Source: Clostridia bacterium
GTDB taxonomy: Bacteria > Bacillota > Clostridia > Oscillospirales > CAG-272
DNA: 35,102 nt
Reading direction: 5' to 3'
Assembly: GCA_017503865.1 (NCBI GenBank)
Contig: JAFVSI010000049.1
Coordinates: 1-35,102, forward strand
Shown in pieces: positions 11,598-17,778 of this stretch. The first letter of the stretch is position 1. Each line of letters starts with the position of its first letter. A program made the translations under genes and the position numbers. Under the pieces are notes generated by a model that was not told the DNA's origin, did no database searches, and worked only from the letters and a program-made list of their open reading frames with translations.

Positions 11598-11635
11598 CAA
11601 TCATTCACTCCATTCAAAGTAATAATCACACATCC

Positions 11636-11742
11636 TGCGTCGCTTATCGGTGCTGACGCAAAGACGCCGTTTCAACTCGCCTATATATAATAGTTTTATT
11701 GAAACAAACGTCTGCTTACCCGCAATTTGGGCAAAGTAAGCA
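11636..11742 (-). ncRNA. Structured 5' leader of rpoBC: three abutting hairpins
   Basis: The minus-strand RNA between the promoter and rpoB can form three consecutive stems. The first is TGCTTAC with GTAAGCA (11736-11742 with 11713-11719). The second is GACG plus GTTTCAA with TTGAAAC plus CGTC (11663-11675 with 11699-11712), broken by a small internal loop. The third is TGCGTC with GACGCA (11655-11660 with 11636-11641). The first two stems abut exactly and the third follows after 2 nt. I know no named RNA family that matches. A role in autoregulation or mRNA stability is inference. Confidence 0.5.
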
Positions 11743-11760
11743 ATTATAATGCAGTTTAAG

Positions 11761-11789
11761 ATTGTAGCACATTTGTCAAGGATTGTCAA
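11761..11789 (-). promoter_or_regulatory. Sigma-A promoter of rpoBC
   Basis: On the minus strand TTGACA (11789-11784) and TACAAT (11766-11761) have a 17-nt spacer, with TGC directly before the -10. A second TTGACA lies inside the spacer. The predicted start near 11754 gives a leader of about 155 nt. The whole divergent gap 11598-12068 holds this promoter and leader, an AT-rich stretch with runs of A and T (11790-11960) without a supported gene, and the promoter of the plus-strand hydrolase operon. Confidence 0.85.
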
Positions 11790-11961
11790 GAGATTTTTGT
11801 ATTATTTTTTAATTTTTTTGTATAAAATAACAAAATGCAAAAAAATGCCTTCCCCGCCCCCGCCGTTTTGCGTGACTTTTTTAGTCTTTGTCGGGGTAAA
11901 AAGCACCAAAAAGCAGGGTGTTTTTTTGGCAAAAACGGCAAGAAAAAAGTCTTGATTTTGC

Positions 11962-11991
11962 TTGACACACCGCTTCTTATGATGGTATAAT
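11962..11991 (+). promoter_or_regulatory. Sigma-A promoter of the four-gene ceramidase-like operon
   Basis: TTGACA (11962-11967) and TATAAT (11986-11991) are separated by 18 nt. The transcript should begin near 11998, about 70 nt before the first start codon. No operator-like palindrome is evident, so the sequence suggests strong housekeeping expression rather than an obvious switch. Confidence 0.8.
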
Positions 11992-12068
11992 GTTGAGTAA
12001 GAAACAGGCATTTTGCCGCTTCTGCCGAAAAGAAGGCATTTTTGTTAATTTCAAGGAGAAAAAACATT

Positions 12069-13448
12069 ATGAAAGCTGGATTTGCAAGACTTGACATCAC
12101 ACCGCCTTTTGGCACCAACCTTGTTGGATATTTTCACCAAAGACCTGCCGATGACATCATCACTCCCCTTTACGTTAACGCAGTTGTAGTTGACGACGGC
12201 GAGAGACGTGCAGCTCTTATCACCCTTGACGCTGAGGGTGCTACCGCTGAATGTACCGCCACAATTAGAGAATACACCTCCGAAATGACGGGCCTTGACC
12301 CCGATTCGATATTCATAAGTTGCATACATACCCACCAAGGTATAGGACTTTACAGTCTTAACGGATTCAACAATATCGTTAAGACGCGTGTTGCCGATGC
12401 CGTACAGCTCGCAATTTACGACCTTCACGAGGCAAAGGCTTACGTTGCCCGTGCAGAGGCTAAGGGCGTCGCCTTTATCCGTCTTTACAGAATGAAGGAC
12501 GGCTCTACAAAGACCAATCCCGGTATGCCCTCTAAGGACAAGGTGCTCGCTCCTATCGGCACTCCCGACGAGACCGCTCAGCTCATCAAATTCAAGAGAG
12601 AGGGTGCAAGCGATATAGCAATCGTAAATTTCCAGATGCACCCCGACGTAATAGGCGGCACAAAGATTTGCCACGACTGGCCCGGATTTGTCCGCACCTA
12701 TCTCGAGGCAGCACTCAATGATGAGGCTGACGGCAAGGGCGTTAAGGCAATTTGCTTTAACGGTGCTCAGGGCGATACCGCTCACATCGACCGCACTCGT
12801 CTTAGCGAGGGTATTCTTCCTAAGTGGGGCGGAGTTGCACACTCTAAGCACATCGCAAGGGTTATCGTCGGTGCTCTTATCGGTGCTTATACCTATGCCA
12901 AGGAAGTAAACTCCGACAAGGTATTCTATAAGAGACAGCCCGTTATCATCAACAGTGCCACAAAGCCCACGCCCGAACAGCTTGAAATAGCTTACAAGGT
13001 ACGTGATGCTTACAACGCAGGCGTTGAAAAGGCAAAGGCGGAGGGACGTTCCGAATGGGACGGTGGAAACGAAGCTGTTAAGGACTTCCCCTTCGGTCTT
13101 GTTCCCGCAAGAAGATTTATCAGCCTCTCGAAAGAGCCTGATACTTATACGCTCTACCTCTCGTCTGTTGGATTTGGCGACGTTTGCTTCGTCGGATTCC
13201 CCGGCGAGCCCTTTACCGAGATAGGCAGACAGACAAAGGCGCGTTCTCCCTTTGAAATGACCTTCACCTGTTGTATGACCAACGGACAGGAAGGCTACTT
13301 CCCGATGAAGGAAGTTTTCGGTGAGGTAAACGGCTACGAGGCGTCCGCTACCCGTTTTGAGGTAGGTACTGCCGAGAAATTTATTGAGGCGGCTGTTGCT
13401 CTTACAGAGGAGCTTAAGGCGGAAAACCCCACACCCGCAGCTGAGTAA
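12069..13448 (+). CDS. Neutral/alkaline ceramidase-like hydrolase, paralog 1
   Basis: This 459-residue protein matches the catalytic domain of the neutral/alkaline non-lysosomal ceramidase family, zinc amidases that split N-acyl sphingosine. Putative metal ligands are H87/H89 (CIHTHQG), H191 (MHPDVIGG), E380 (FPGEPF) and Y410 (NGQEGYFP). The late motif GYEASAT at 422-428 also fits. The segment that is GDVSPN in true ceramidases reads GDTAHI (235-240), so the catalytic serine is replaced by alanine. There is no signal peptide, and the C-terminal Ig-like domain of secreted ceramidases is missing. The ATG at 12069 is chosen because AAGGAG lies 10 nt upstream and the paralogs all begin MKAGFA; an upstream in-frame TTG at 12042 is rejected. 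It is the first of four tandem paralogs. The substrate is unknown. Confidence 0.85.
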   Translation: MKAGFARLDITPPFGTNLVGYFHQRPADDIITPLYVNAVVVDDGERRAALITLDAEGATAECTATIREYTSEMTGLDPDSIFISCIHTHQGIGLYSLNGFNNIVKTRVADAVQLAIYDLHEAKAYVARAEAKGVAFIRLYRMKDGSTKTNPGMPSKDKVLAPIGTPDETAQLIKFKREGASDIAIVNFQMHPDVIGGTKICHDWPGFVRTYLEAALNDEADGKGVKAICFNGAQGDTAHIDRTRLSEGILPKWGGVAHSKHIARVIVGALIGAYTYAKEVNSDKVFYKRQPVIINSATKPTPEQLEIAYKVRDAYNAGVEKAKAEGRSEWDGGNEAVKDFPFGLVPARRFISLSKEPDTYTLYLSSVGFGDVCFVGFPGEPFTEIGRQTKARSPFEMTFTCCMTNGQEGYFPMKEVFGEVNGYEASATRFEVGTAEKFIEAAVALTEELKAENPTPAAE

Positions 13449-13474
13449 TTTACACTTATTCCAATATAACGATT

Positions 13475-14842
13475 ATGAAAGCCGGATTTGCAAGACTTGA
13501 TGTAACCCCACCCTTCGGGTATAACCTCGCAGGCTACTTTTTTCCACGTCCTGCCGATGGGATACTCACTAATTTATACGTAAATGCAGTAGCAGTTGAC
13601 GATGGTGAGAGGCGTGCCGCACTTGTAACTATCGATGCTTGCAGTGCAATCGAAAAATGTACCCGTGAGATAAAGGAGTATACCTCGAGTCTCACGGGAC
13701 TTGAGCCCGACTCGATATTTATAAGCTGTACGCATACGCATCAAGGACTCGGACTTTATAATTTCAACGGATTTAACGATACCGTAAAGACACGTATTGC
13801 CGATGCCGTAAAGCTTGCACTCTTCGACCTCAAGGAAGCAAAAGCATATATAGCCCGTACGGAGGCTAAGGGCGTTGCATTCCTACGTCTTTTTAAGATG
13901 AAGGACGGTACGACCAAAACAAATCCCTCTCTTGCCGATAAGGATAACGTTCTATGCCCCTTCGGCGAGCCCGATGAGACAGTTCAGCTCGTTAAGCTTA
14001 AAAGAGAGAATGCCCCCGATATAGCTATCGTAAACTTCCAGATGCACCCAGACGTAATAGGCGGTACAAAGATATGCCACGACTGGCCGGGATTTGTTCG
14101 CACATATCTTGAAGAAGCACTCTCTGACGAGGCTGACGGAAAGGGTGTGCGTGCAATATTCTTTAACGGAGCTGAGGGCGACACGGCACACAATAACCGC
14201 AACCGTCTTTCCGAAGGGGTTTTTACACTTAGAAAAGGTATCGAGCATTCAAGGCACATCGCAAGAGTAATAGTCGGTGCTGTTATCGGTGCTTATACCT
14301 ATGCAAAAGAGGTAAACTCAGACAAGGTATTTTACGGAAAACAATCACTTCAAATAAACAGCAAGAGAAAACCCACTGCCGAAGAGCTTGAGGTTGCATA
14401 CAAGGTTCGTGAAGCTTACACCTTGGGAGCAGAAAAGGCAAAGGAAGAGGGCGTCTCCGAGTGGATAGGCGGCAGAGAGGCGGTAAAGGATTACCCCTTC
14501 GATATTGTCACGGCAAGAAGATATATAAATCTCTCTAATGCTCCCGACACATATACACTCTATATAAGTGCGGTCGGCTTTGGCGACGTTTGCTTCGTAG
14601 GATTTCCAGGTGAGCCCTTTGCCGAGATAGGCAGACAAACAAAGGCAAAGTCACCGTTTGAGATGACCGTGCCGTGCTGTAATACCAATAACTCTGCAGG
14701 CTACTTCCCTATGAAAGAGGTCTTCGGGGACGTAAACGGATACGAGGCTTCCACCACTCCGTTTGAAATGGGTGCTGCCGAAAAACTTATAGATGGGGCA
14801 CTTGCCCTGACAAACGAACTGAAAATTTTTCAGCTAAACTGA
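13475..14842 (+). CDS. Neutral/alkaline ceramidase-like hydrolase, paralog 2
   Basis: This 455-residue paralog is colinear with the gene 26 nt upstream. The presumed zinc ligands are conserved: H87/H89 in CTHTHQG, H191 in MHPDVIGG, the Glu of PGEPFAEIG and the Tyr of NNSAGYFP. The serine-nucleophile segment reads GDTAHN, so Ser is absent. It also lacks a signal peptide. The early segment TLDAEGAT of paralogs 1 and 3 is TIDACSAI here, so the active-site rim may differ. No convincing Shine-Dalgarno sequence precedes the ATG (the upstream bases are AT-rich), so translation may depend on coupling to paralog 1. The start is fixed by the MKAGFARLD N-terminus shared by all members. Function is inferred only as hydrolase of unknown substrate. 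Confidence 0.84.
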   Translation: MKAGFARLDVTPPFGYNLAGYFFPRPADGILTNLYVNAVAVDDGERRAALVTIDACSAIEKCTREIKEYTSSLTGLEPDSIFISCTHTHQGLGLYNFNGFNDTVKTRIADAVKLALFDLKEAKAYIARTEAKGVAFLRLFKMKDGTTKTNPSLADKDNVLCPFGEPDETVQLVKLKRENAPDIAIVNFQMHPDVIGGTKICHDWPGFVRTYLEEALSDEADGKGVRAIFFNGAEGDTAHNNRNRLSEGVFTLRKGIEHSRHIARVIVGAVIGAYTYAKEVNSDKVFYGKQSLQINSKRKPTAEELEVAYKVREAYTLGAEKAKEEGVSEWIGGREAVKDYPFDIVTARRYINLSNAPDTYTLYISAVGFGDVCFVGFPGEPFAEIGRQTKAKSPFEMTVPCCNTNNSAGYFPMKEVFGDVNGYEASTTPFEMGAAEKLIDGALALTNELKIFQLN

Positions 14843-14856
14843 AAGGATATAAACTT

Positions 14857-16236
14857 ATGAAAGCAGGATTTGCAAGACTTGATATAACACCTCCCTTCGG
14901 CTACGGACTTGTCGGTTATTTTCATGCAAGACCTACCGACGGTCATATTACCCCTCTTTACGTTAATGCAGTAGTAATCGACGACGGTGAAAGACGTGCC
15001 GCCCTCGTAACTCTTGACGCAGAGGGAGCTACCGCAAATATGACACGTATCATGAGAGAATATACCGCAGAGAGAACGGGAATGGATCCCGACGCAATAT
15101 TCATAAGTTGCACTCACTCTCATACCGCAATAGGTATTTACTCTATGAACGACCCCTTCCACCACATCGTAAAGACACGTGTGGCGGACGCGATAGAGCT
15201 CGCTATAAAGGACCTCAAGGAGGCTAAGACATACGTTGCAAGTGCCGAGGCAAAGGGCGTTGCTTTCGTTCGCCTTTTCAAGATGAAGGACGGCTCTACA
15301 AAGACCAATCCGGGACTTAAAGACAAGGACAACGTTCTTTGTCCCTTTGGAGACCCCGATGAGACAACTCAGCTTATACGACTTAAGCGTGAGGGTGCAA
15401 GTGACATTGCTATCGTTCAGTTCCAGACACACCCCGACGTTATCGGCGGAACCAAGACCTGCTACGACTGGCCTGGATTTGTTCGCTACTACCTCGAGCA
15501 GGCACTTCGCGACGAGGCTGACGGAAAGGGTGTAAATGCAATTTGCTTCAACGGTGCACAGGGCGATACCGCAACCACAGACCGCTCGGAGCTTATTTCA
15601 AAGGGCGTTCTTGTAAAGAGAACGGGTGTTGCTCAGTCAAAGCACATCGCAAAGGTCATCGTCGGTGCTCTTCTCGGTGTTTACACCTATGCTAAAGAAG
15701 TTAACTGCGACAAGGTATTTTATAAGAGAAAGCTCGTTCTTATAAACAGTGCTCCCAAGCCCACACCCGAGCAGTACGAAATTGCAGGACAGATAGTAAA
15801 GGCTTACAAAGAAGGCTGCGAAAAGGCAAAGGCAGAGGGACGTTCCGAGTGGGACGGCGGTGCTGAGGCTATCAAGGACTTCCCCTTCGGTATCGTTCCC
15901 GCAAGAAAGTTCCGCTCTATCGTTGACGAGCCCGACGTTTACGAGCTTTATCTCTCTTGCGTAGGCTTTGGTGACGTTTGCTTCATAGGCTTCCCCGGTG
16001 AGCCCTTTACCGAGATAGGCAGACAGACAAAGGCTCAGTCTCCCTTCGCTATGACATTTCCCTGCTGTATGACAAACGGTCAGGAGGGATACTTCCCGAT
16101 GAAGGAAGTTTTCGGTGACGTAAACGGCTACGAGGCATCTGCAACCTTCTTCGAGATGGGTGCTGCCGAAAAGCTAATGGCTGCGGCAATTGACCTCACA
16201 AAGGAAATGCAGAATGCAGGAAAGAACGAAGAATAA
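14857..16236 (+). CDS. Neutral/alkaline ceramidase-like hydrolase, paralog 3
   Basis: This 459-residue product is very similar to paralog 1 over its whole length, so the pair probably arose by a recent duplication. Ligand positions are H87/H89 (CTHSHTA), H192 (THPDVIGG, shifted by a one-residue insertion near 100), the Glu of FPGEPF and the Tyr of NGQEGYFP. The expected catalytic serine motif is GDTATTD, again without Ser. The histidine loop differs from paralogs 1 and 2 (SHTAIGIYSMNDPF against THQGIGLYSLNGF), which suggests a different substrate preference. The gene starts only 14 nt after paralog 2, with AAGGAT about 10 nt before the ATG. No signal peptide is present. It belongs to the same operon. 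Confidence 0.85.
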   Translation: MKAGFARLDITPPFGYGLVGYFHARPTDGHITPLYVNAVVIDDGERRAALVTLDAEGATANMTRIMREYTAERTGMDPDAIFISCTHSHTAIGIYSMNDPFHHIVKTRVADAIELAIKDLKEAKTYVASAEAKGVAFVRLFKMKDGSTKTNPGLKDKDNVLCPFGDPDETTQLIRLKREGASDIAIVQFQTHPDVIGGTKTCYDWPGFVRYYLEQALRDEADGKGVNAICFNGAQGDTATTDRSELISKGVLVKRTGVAQSKHIAKVIVGALLGVYTYAKEVNCDKVFYKRKLVLINSAPKPTPEQYEIAGQIVKAYKEGCEKAKAEGRSEWDGGAEAIKDFPFGIVPARKFRSIVDEPDVYELYLSCVGFGDVCFIGFPGEPFTEIGRQTKAQSPFAMTFPCCMTNGQEGYFPMKEVFGDVNGYEASATFFEMGAAEKLMAAAIDLTKEMQNAGKNEE

Positions 16237-16265
16237 TTTTCCATTCGAAAGGATTTTAAAAAACT

Positions 16266-17582
16266 ATGAAAGCTGGATTTGCAAAGCTTGAGATAACTCC
16301 CGCTCTCGGCTCAAACCTTAACGGATACTTCCGTGTAAGACCTGCCGAGGACATTCTCGAGCCCATATATGCGAACGCTCTCGCCTTCAGCGACGGAGAG
16401 AACACCGCACTCGCAATAAGTCTTGATATTTCGGAGATAATTCAAAAGGATACCGACGTTATGCGTAACATTATCTCCGAGGCAACGGGCGTTCCCTTCG
16501 AGGCTGTATTTATCGCGTGTATCCACACGCATACCGCTCCCGTTATAAGCGAGATAGGCGGATTTTTCAAGAGAGACCCCCACTATTTCGATTTCTTCTG
16601 CAAGAAGGTACGTGACTGTGCAATCCTCGCAATTGAGGATATGAAAGAGGCTGTTCCCTCGATAGCAAGGGGCGAGGCAAAGGGCGTAGCCTTCGTTCGC
16701 CGCTTCAGACTCAAGGACGGCACTACCGTAACGAATCCCGGCATCGCTAAAATGAAGGACGTCGTAGGCCCCGTCGGTGAACCCAATGAGACGGTACAGC
16801 TCGTAAAACTCAAGAGAGAGGGTGCGTCCGATATTGCCATTGTAAACTTTGGCTGTCACCCCGACGTTGTCGGCAAAAACGTTCTTTGCCCCGACTGGCC
16901 CTGCTATCTTCGTGACACTCTCGAGAAGGCACTCTTCGACGAGGCAGACGGCAAGGGCGTAAACGTTATCTTCTTCAACGGTGCTCAGGGCGACGTTGCC
17001 AACACCGACAGAATGGGCGGTGTAAGACGTAGCGGCCCCGTATATTCAAAGCACATCGGTCGTGTTATCGCAGGTGCGGTAATGTCGATTTATCAGTACA
17101 CCGAGCCCGTAGCGTGCGACAAGGTGTTCTTCAAGCAGAATATGACACAGGCAGCTCTCGCTAAGGGTACTCCCGAGCAGGTCGCAATTGCAAAGGAGAT
17201 AGACGCAAAATTCCTTCGAGACGAGGATATTTCAGACTGTCCCTTCAACATAACTCTCACCCGTAAATATCTCAGAAATGAAAACGAGCCCGAGATAGTT
17301 GACCTCAACGTTGTCTGCGTCGGATTTGGCGACGTAGCTTTCGTCGGTCTTCCGGGCGAGCCCTTTACGGCAATAGGTAATGCTATTAAGGAAAATTCTC
17401 CTTTCACGATGACTATTCCCTGCTGTAATGCTAACGGCTCTGCGGGCTATTTCCCGACAGACGATGCACTTACCAGCAACGGCTACGAGTCGGCAAGCTC
17501 TCCCTTCAAACCGGGAATTGCGGACAATATGATAAACACCTCGCTCCGCACACTTAACGAACTTAAAGAGGAGCTCAAATAA
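16266..17582 (+). CDS. Neutral/alkaline ceramidase-like hydrolase, paralog 4 (most divergent)
   Basis: At 438 residues this is the shortest and most divergent copy, although it begins with the shared MKAGFAKLEITP. It keeps the His pair (CIHTHTAP, 87/89), the third His (GCHPDVVG), the Glu (LPGEPFTAIG) and the Tyr (NGSAGYFP). The serine segment is GDVANTD: valine is restored, but alanine still replaces the nucleophile. The region after the His pair (ISEIGGFFKRDPHYF) differs from the other three, as does a shortened stretch around residues 300-330. It lies 29 nt after paralog 3, with AAAGGAT upstream, and is the last gene of the operon. A strong hairpin follows 14 nt after its stop. Cytoplasmic location is inferred from the lack of a signal peptide. 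Confidence 0.83.
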   Translation: MKAGFAKLEITPALGSNLNGYFRVRPAEDILEPIYANALAFSDGENTALAISLDISEIIQKDTDVMRNIISEATGVPFEAVFIACIHTHTAPVISEIGGFFKRDPHYFDFFCKKVRDCAILAIEDMKEAVPSIARGEAKGVAFVRRFRLKDGTTVTNPGIAKMKDVVGPVGEPNETVQLVKLKREGASDIAIVNFGCHPDVVGKNVLCPDWPCYLRDTLEKALFDEADGKGVNVIFFNGAQGDVANTDRMGGVRRSGPVYSKHIGRVIAGAVMSIYQYTEPVACDKVFFKQNMTQAALAKGTPEQVAIAKEIDAKFLRDEDISDCPFNITLTRKYLRNENEPEIVDLNVVCVGFGDVAFVGLPGEPFTAIGNAIKENSPFTMTIPCCNANGSAGYFPTDDALTSNGYESASSPFKPGIADNMINTSLRTLNELKEELK

Positions 17583-17596
17583 GCAAAAAACAATGT

Positions 17597-17644
17597 CCCG
17601 ACGCCTACGTCGGCGTCGGGGCTTCGACTCTGAAAAAATTTTTT
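17597..17644 (+). terminator. Hairpin ending the ceramidase-like operon
   Basis: A 9-bp stem CCCGACGCC / GGCGTCGGG (17597-17605 and 17612-17620) with a 6-nt loop lies just past paralog 4. The T run (TTTTTT near 17639-17644) is separated from the stem by about 18 nt that include AAAAAA, so it is an imperfect intrinsic terminator. Confidence 0.5.
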
Positions 17645-17665
17645 AGAAAAAATATCAAAAACCAC

Positions 17666-17694
17666 TTGATTTATTATTTATTTTGTGGTATTAT
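17666..17694 (+). promoter_or_regulatory. Sigma-A promoter of rpsT
   Basis: TTGATT (17666-17671) and TATTAT (17689-17694) are 17 nt apart. The predicted start near 17701 gives a leader of about 78 nt containing a small possible hairpin (GCGTG at 17715 with CACGC at 17732). Confidence 0.7.
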
Positions 17695-17778
17695 ATTTGA
17701 CTGTATGGACGATGGCGTGTAACCTCTCATGCACGCATAAGACAGAAACAAGGCAAAAACTTACGGAGGTGAATACTT

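Follow-up and report, generated by a model that had tools for sequence, protein, structure and literature searches.

Four tandem genes for proteins with the fold of neutral ceramidases lie between rpoB and rpsT on a contig of a Clostridia bacterium (Bacillota; Oscillospirales; CAG-272; assembly GCA_017503865.1, contig JAFVSI010000049.1). The analysed stretch, called the window here, comprises positions 1 to 35,102 of this contig (35,102 nt). Each copy is predicted to be a single-domain cytoplasmic protein that consists of the neutral-ceramidase catalytic domain alone, with the metal-ligand positions kept and the catalytic serine replaced, and the family to which the copies belong would most likely serve sugar catabolism. 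The genes and the signals around them are as follows:

12069..13448, plus strand: copy 1, ceramidase-fold protein of 459 amino acids (aa) (open reading frame, ORF; PF04734, 22 bits)
13475..14842, plus strand: copy 2, ceramidase-fold protein of 455 aa (ORF; PF04734, 30.5 bits)
14857..16236, plus strand: copy 3, ceramidase-fold protein of 459 aa (ORF; AlphaFold2 model; PF04734, 23.3 bits)
16266..17582, plus strand: copy 4, 438 aa, the most divergent (ORF; no Pfam match; nearest kin L079 and L080, from another family of the same order)
11962..11991, plus strand: candidate promoter TTGACA-18-TATAAT upstream of copy 1 (12 of 12 matches to the sigma-70 consensus; consensus match only)
17597..17620, no strand assigned: GC-rich hairpin between copy 4 and rpsT (T-run on the minus-strand side; role as terminator of the operon uncertain)

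Fold, metal site and layout of the array

Copy 3, the sole copy modelled, has the ceramidase fold in its AlphaFold2 model, and a search of the PDB with a profile of alignment A2 (32 rows, window copies included) found neutral ceramidase structures; phmmer with the single sequence of copy 3 found no relative in the PDB. The same profile scored the window copies at 517-544 bits, and these share the positions conserved in the family. None of them reaches the gathering cut-off of PF04734 (Ceramidase_alk; 32.1 bits). In NCBIfam copy 1 alone was matched, once and at chance level, and a weak Pfam match of copy 3 to DUF2070 (19.8 bits) stayed below the cut-off of 30.

The His, His, Glu and Tyr positions, which we take to be the zinc ligands of neutral ceramidase, are kept in the alignment in all four copies; the predicted structure of copy 3 thus combines the ceramidase fold with conserved ligand positions, the point at which an earlier note on this DNA had expected its proposal to fail if wrong. 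The Ser of the G-D-x-S motif, the catalytic serine of neutral ceramidase, is replaced by Ala in all four copies, and across 158 family rows the same position holds Asn in 138 and Ser in one. True neutral ceramidases carry a C-terminal domain after the catalytic domain and are secreted or membrane-bound. The C-terminal domain is absent from the window proteins (438-459 aa), whose alignment extends no further than residue 491 in the Pseudomonas chain and residue 624 in the human one. As judged from the alignment, the copies start at the first core strand, which leaves no room for a signal peptide ahead of the fold and agrees with the cytoplasmic location that the note had proposed together with the fold.

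The four full-length genes are colinear on the plus strand, with intergenic gaps of 26, 14 and 29 nt, and all four proteins begin with MKAGFA, just as the note had described. Its ranking of the copies also held: copies 1 and 3 are the closest pair (75.3% amino-acid identity), by a small margin over copies 1 and 2 (73.4%), followed by copies 2 and 3 (67.3%), and copy 4 is the most divergent (48-49% to each other copy). Among copies 1-3, synonymous divergence (dS) is 1.2-1.6 and nonsynonymous divergence (dN) 0.18-0.25; dN is far below dS for every pair of the four, from which it follows that the duplications are not fresh and that the copies are under purifying selection. The loop downstream of the HxH motif is 7-8 residues shorter in copies 1-3 than in copy 4 in the alignment, and these loop differences are all that was seen of the proposed divergence of the active-site rim.

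The spacing, the common strand and the promoter suggest that the four genes form one operon. Both sigma-70 hexamers of the promoter are perfect, with an 18-nt spacer and a TG preceding the -10 element, in line with the strong promoter that had been claimed; the nine promoter-like sites in the region are no excess over shuffled sequences (6.8, standard deviation 2.8). The claimed terminal hairpin is present, with a weaker plus-strand stem at 17616-17633. Because the T-run beside the hairpin lies on the minus strand, the hairpin may serve the other strand or none, and its role as terminator of the four-gene operon is unproven. An Rfam scan of the window at gathering thresholds gave no match.

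Origin of the copies and expansion of the family

A quick tree of 158 rows, with supports from the SH-like approximate likelihood ratio test (SH-aLRT), places the four copies with L079, L080 and L038 in one clade of seven rows (support 98), and not in unrelated clades. Copies 1-3 form a clade of their own (99), and copy 4 clusters with the single genes L079 and L080 of genomes G276 and G185 (100), to which it is nearer on the tree than to copies 1-3. The tandem expansion suggested in the note therefore fits copies 1-3, which look like one local duplication series, and not copy 4, which appears to stand outside it.

The junction of rpoB and rpsT was opened in 14 of the 22 other genomes of the genus with an rpoB match, and all 14 lack a ceramidase-fold gene at this place. 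An rpsT gene was found in all but L201 and faces rpoB in these 13, the start codons lying 390-2155 bp apart in 12 genomes and 6.6 kb apart in the other. The window junction (11598-17778) measures 6182 bp between start codons and is mostly filled by the four genes. As a separate observation, the junction appears to be a variable slot in the genus, since extra ORFs were seen in four of nine mapped regions (L196, L203, L204 and L207), among them lipoprotein-like ORFs of 501 aa and 293 aa, one of 163 aa, and 6.6 kb of other genes.

Copy 4 shows 66% identity to its counterpart in G185, a genome from another family of the same order; between the window genome and G185, RpoB identity is 64% in residues 4-1031 and 71% in residues 1086-1271. 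Metabolic enzymes usually change faster than RpoB, which makes horizontal transfer likelier and suggests that the operon or its founder genes may have been acquired in this way. Transfer is no more than suggested, however, because the 66% falls inside the range of RpoB (64-71%); the GC content and base composition of the operon are not deviant, and gene loss in the other species is a possible alternative. The founder genes or the operon would then have come to lie between rpoB and rpsT in this lineage, with another family of related bacteria as the probable donor. Tandem duplication on the spot would next have produced copies 1-3, and purifying selection would have acted on them as they diverged. 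The outcome would be a small set of enzymes with different loops beside the metal site, in a genome where the same family is expanded elsewhere as six tandem lipoproteins and as domains of larger proteins.

The genome (2.14 Mb) contains 19 family matches, or 13 once the redundant contigs C4 (five matches) and C14 (one) are dropped. C14 had been considered as a strain variant of the window, a reading that was dropped; C14 is 99.97% identical to the window over 3309 bases and C4 is 99.99% identical to part of C71, and both are taken as redundant assembly copies and left uncounted. Besides the four window copies, the 13 members comprise a tandem set of six lipoproteins on C71, one lipoprotein of 780 aa on C38 and a pair of giant ORFs on C85 (lipoprotein signals judged by eye); together these nine make up a separate clade on the tree (SH-aLRT 99). 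On C71 (L032:664-6854), phage head genes (major head protein, portal and terminase; PHROGs) lie shortly upstream of the six-gene array on the opposite strand. The C38 protein (L035:4294-6636) has about 350 residues of unassigned type ahead of the ceramidase-fold domain, and Pfam gave nothing at E 0.01 for it. The giants (L036:6230-19612, 4460 aa; L037:21-9329, at least 3102 aa and open at the contig end) both carry the ceramidase-fold domain in the last quarter, and the 4460-aa one also has DUF4886.

Of 59 genomes treated as relatives, this one among them, 21 had a match (E 0.001), as did 43 of 394 genomes of the order (1e-20) and 24 of 299 genomes of the phylum. A search of genome contigs with alignment A3 gave 245 relatives, and one with the single sequence of copy 3 confirmed none. 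By record title, the best 80 of the 245 come mostly from metagenome-assembled genomes (MAGs) of Clostridia or Oscillospiraceae, many bearing the names of ruminant gut sites, and also include MAGs of Kiritimatiellae, Lentisphaeria and Victivallales and the isolate Oligosphaera ethanolica. Phage records searched with copy 4 gave no match, and viral contigs scanned with alignment A3 no confirmed relative. Across 18 genomes picked for strong or many matches, the number per genome ranged from 1 to 71, the highest in G219 (71 profile matches in 2.1 Mb). One region of G219 (C19:137190-165022; L180-L182) has 18 ceramidase-fold genes in a row over 27.8 kb, with a largest gap of 886 nt; a lipobox is present in 17 of the 18, pairwise identity is 40-71%, and a GH28 gene follows 93 bp further on.

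Two or more family genes in a row were found at 22 of 106 distinct fetched loci, and three or more at 11, counts that are not a prevalence because the loci were fetched for their matches, some for tandem matches. On the tree, array members tend to cluster by locus (35 label changes across 25 groups; mean of 64.7 after shuffling), which indicates that many of the arrays had separate origins; members of L091/L092 and of L084/L085 interleave and look shared by descent. Other Clostridia arrays (L082, L095/L151, L096, L149, L152, L175 and G219) resemble the window in family and tandem arrangement, with 3 to 18 genes, and members in L082, L095, L149 and L175 likewise start without a signal sequence. 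They differ from it in that several are separate duplications and others are common to several genomes, and in that the G219 array consists of lipoproteins (17 of 18).

Gene neighbourhoods and proposed function

We attach an even chance to the reading that the four proteins use zinc to hydrolyse an amide or ester bond in compounds derived from glycans. To judge from the fold, two His, one Glu and one Tyr would hold a zinc ion that activates water for the cleavage. The substrate would most likely be an N- or O-acylated sugar or other glycan-derived compound taken up by the cell, and not ceramide, given the gene neighbourhoods of relatives and the fact that both the ceramidase serine and the C-terminal domain have been lost; the copies may divide this labour among themselves. 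The assignment of the family to sugar catabolism follows from these neighbours. From 162 candidates (140-1200 aa, not cut at a contig end), 151 remained after removal of near-identical ones, and the 120 of 160-600 aa were kept as operon neighbours and compared with 120 distant genes drawn at random from 189 of the same size range at the same loci; both sets rest on mechanical ORF calls, some of which may be shadow ORFs. Gfo/Idh/MocA oxidoreductases led the neighbour families, with 14 of 120, and made up at most 1 of the 120 distant genes (p 0.0007 or lower). Further neighbours were xylose-isomerase-like, NAD-epimerase, GH4, GH20, GH29, GH39, M55 D-aminopeptidase, GDSL and glucuronoyl-esterase-like proteins. 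Nine amidohydrolases chosen by eye for their likeness to NagA, with the L040 neighbour left out (eight Clostridia loci, one Nitratireductor plasmid), were all nearest to NagA, three of them above the NCBIfam cut-off; NagA is N-acetylglucosamine-6-phosphate deacetylase. Twelve plasmid records matched, and six regions were opened: two Nitratireductor clusters with 6-phosphogluconolactonase, an SIS protein, an amidohydrolase, the ceramidase-fold gene and a sugar ABC transporter, and four haloarchaeal regions (of eight matching records), all with Gfo/Idh/MocA genes. A recurring cluster was also seen at five single-copy relatives (L135, L158, L166, L171 and L173), with GH4, a NagA-family or S9-like protein and the ceramidase-fold gene, and mostly also an NAD-epimerase and a dihydrodipicolinate synthase (DHDPS)-family gene (names partly given by eye).

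Several points weigh against this reading. The window operon has no sugar genes alongside, its flanks being rpoB and rpsT, and several cytoplasmic arrays elsewhere are flanked by housekeeping genes: lactate/malate dehydrogenase and SRP54 at L175, S11 carboxypeptidase and type II topoisomerase at L095, and a glycine transporter at L082. (Among the seven array loci examined, L149 has a Gfo/Idh/MocA gene directly behind the array.) The excess of amidohydrolases (9 against 2) and of DHDPS (7 against at most 1) is only suggestive (p about 0.06 each), at least one of these nine neighbouring amidohydrolases (L157) is of the adenine-deaminase type, and a NagA-family gene several genes away at L038 was counted in the distant set, a weak spot of the control. 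Neighbour rows from related genomes are not independent, neighbourhoods differ between clades, so that one substrate class for all is uncertain, and no activity measurement on a close relative is known to us. Partner genes, about which the note had made no proposal, are absent at the window operon and present beside many single-copy relatives, where they point to sugar catabolism. Its idea of a hydrolase set for related amide or ester substrates gains partial support from the fold, the zinc positions and the missing signal peptide.

The same neighbours could be read in another way, with the proteins as zinc enzymes of sugar oxidation and elimination that work with the Gfo/Idh/MocA dehydrogenases without amide hydrolysis, such as lactonases or lyases with oxidised sugars as substrates. 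The rank of that family among the neighbours, the DHDPS, xylose-isomerase-like and NAD-epimerase genes, and the Asn that replaces the ceramidase serine in most rows all fit; NagA-family deacetylases are recurring partners too, however, and those members of the fold that have been characterised are amidases, and we hold this reading to be rather unlikely. True ceramidases or lipid amidases acting on ceramides or N-acyl lipids of the host, the diet or neighbouring Bacteroidetes would share the fold and zinc-ligand positions, but the Ala in all four copies, the single Ser among 158 rows, the missing C-terminal domain and signal peptide and the sugar genes common beside relatives make this quite improbable.

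We also give little probability to the recycling of, or attack on, cell-wall fragments by amide cleavage in peptidoglycan-derived amino sugars. At one related locus, genes of the NagA family, an M55 D-aminopeptidase and a GDSL protein follow one another upstream, and the Nitratireductor clusters combine SIS and NagA-family genes, but other neighbourhoods contain GH4, GH20, GH39, GH28 or glucuronoyl-esterase-like genes, sugar kinases or isomerases. That the copies are largely redundant or decaying duplicates without diversified function is very improbable: the family duplicates frequently, yet dN is far below dS between all copies, the metal-ligand positions are intact in each, and a full-consensus promoter lies upstream.

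Relation to known ceramidases and significance

The neutral ceramidases of Pseudomonas aeruginosa (2zws, 2zxc) and human (4wgk), members of PF04734, share the fold and zinc-ligand positions with the window copies. The copies differ from them in their low identity (15-17%), in lacking the C-terminal domain, catalytic Ser and secretion signal, in scoring below the Pfam cut-off and in their tandem arrangement. Closer in size are RefSeq proteins named 'neutral/alkaline non-lysosomal ceramidase N-terminal domain-containing protein' from Nitratireductor and haloarchaeal plasmids, which are short like the window copies (420-449 aa in the six regions opened) and 24-27% identical to copy 3; they differ in occurring at one place per record, near sugar genes (six of 12 records opened), and not in an isolated tandem operon. 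An article on alkaline ceramidases counts neutral ceramidase among enzymes with similar active sites (PMC9436119). No description of tandem ceramidase-fold arrays or of a serine-less subfamily was found in the accessible parts of the open-licence PMC literature. This agrees with the note, which knew of no described system of the kind; the set nevertheless does not stand alone, with similar arrays recurring elsewhere among Clostridia. The fold itself is known; a single-domain branch without the ceramidase serine and with repeated tandem amplification appears undescribed. Because the ceramidase residues are lost and members frequently lie among sugar genes, database annotations of the family that refer to ceramide are probably misleading.

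More tentatively, the serine-less branch could be a new family of carbohydrate amidases or esterases of gut Clostridia, amplified in tandem to as many as 18 consecutive genes and 71 family matches in one 2.1-Mb genome, in which case the cytoplasmic, lipoprotein and giant forms would each serve a different acylated product of glycans. Expansions of this size imply that the activity is of importance to these bacteria, which are known mostly from metagenomes, and the four small, diverged cytoplasmic copies in one operon offer a compact test set for the substrate and for the division among tandem copies.
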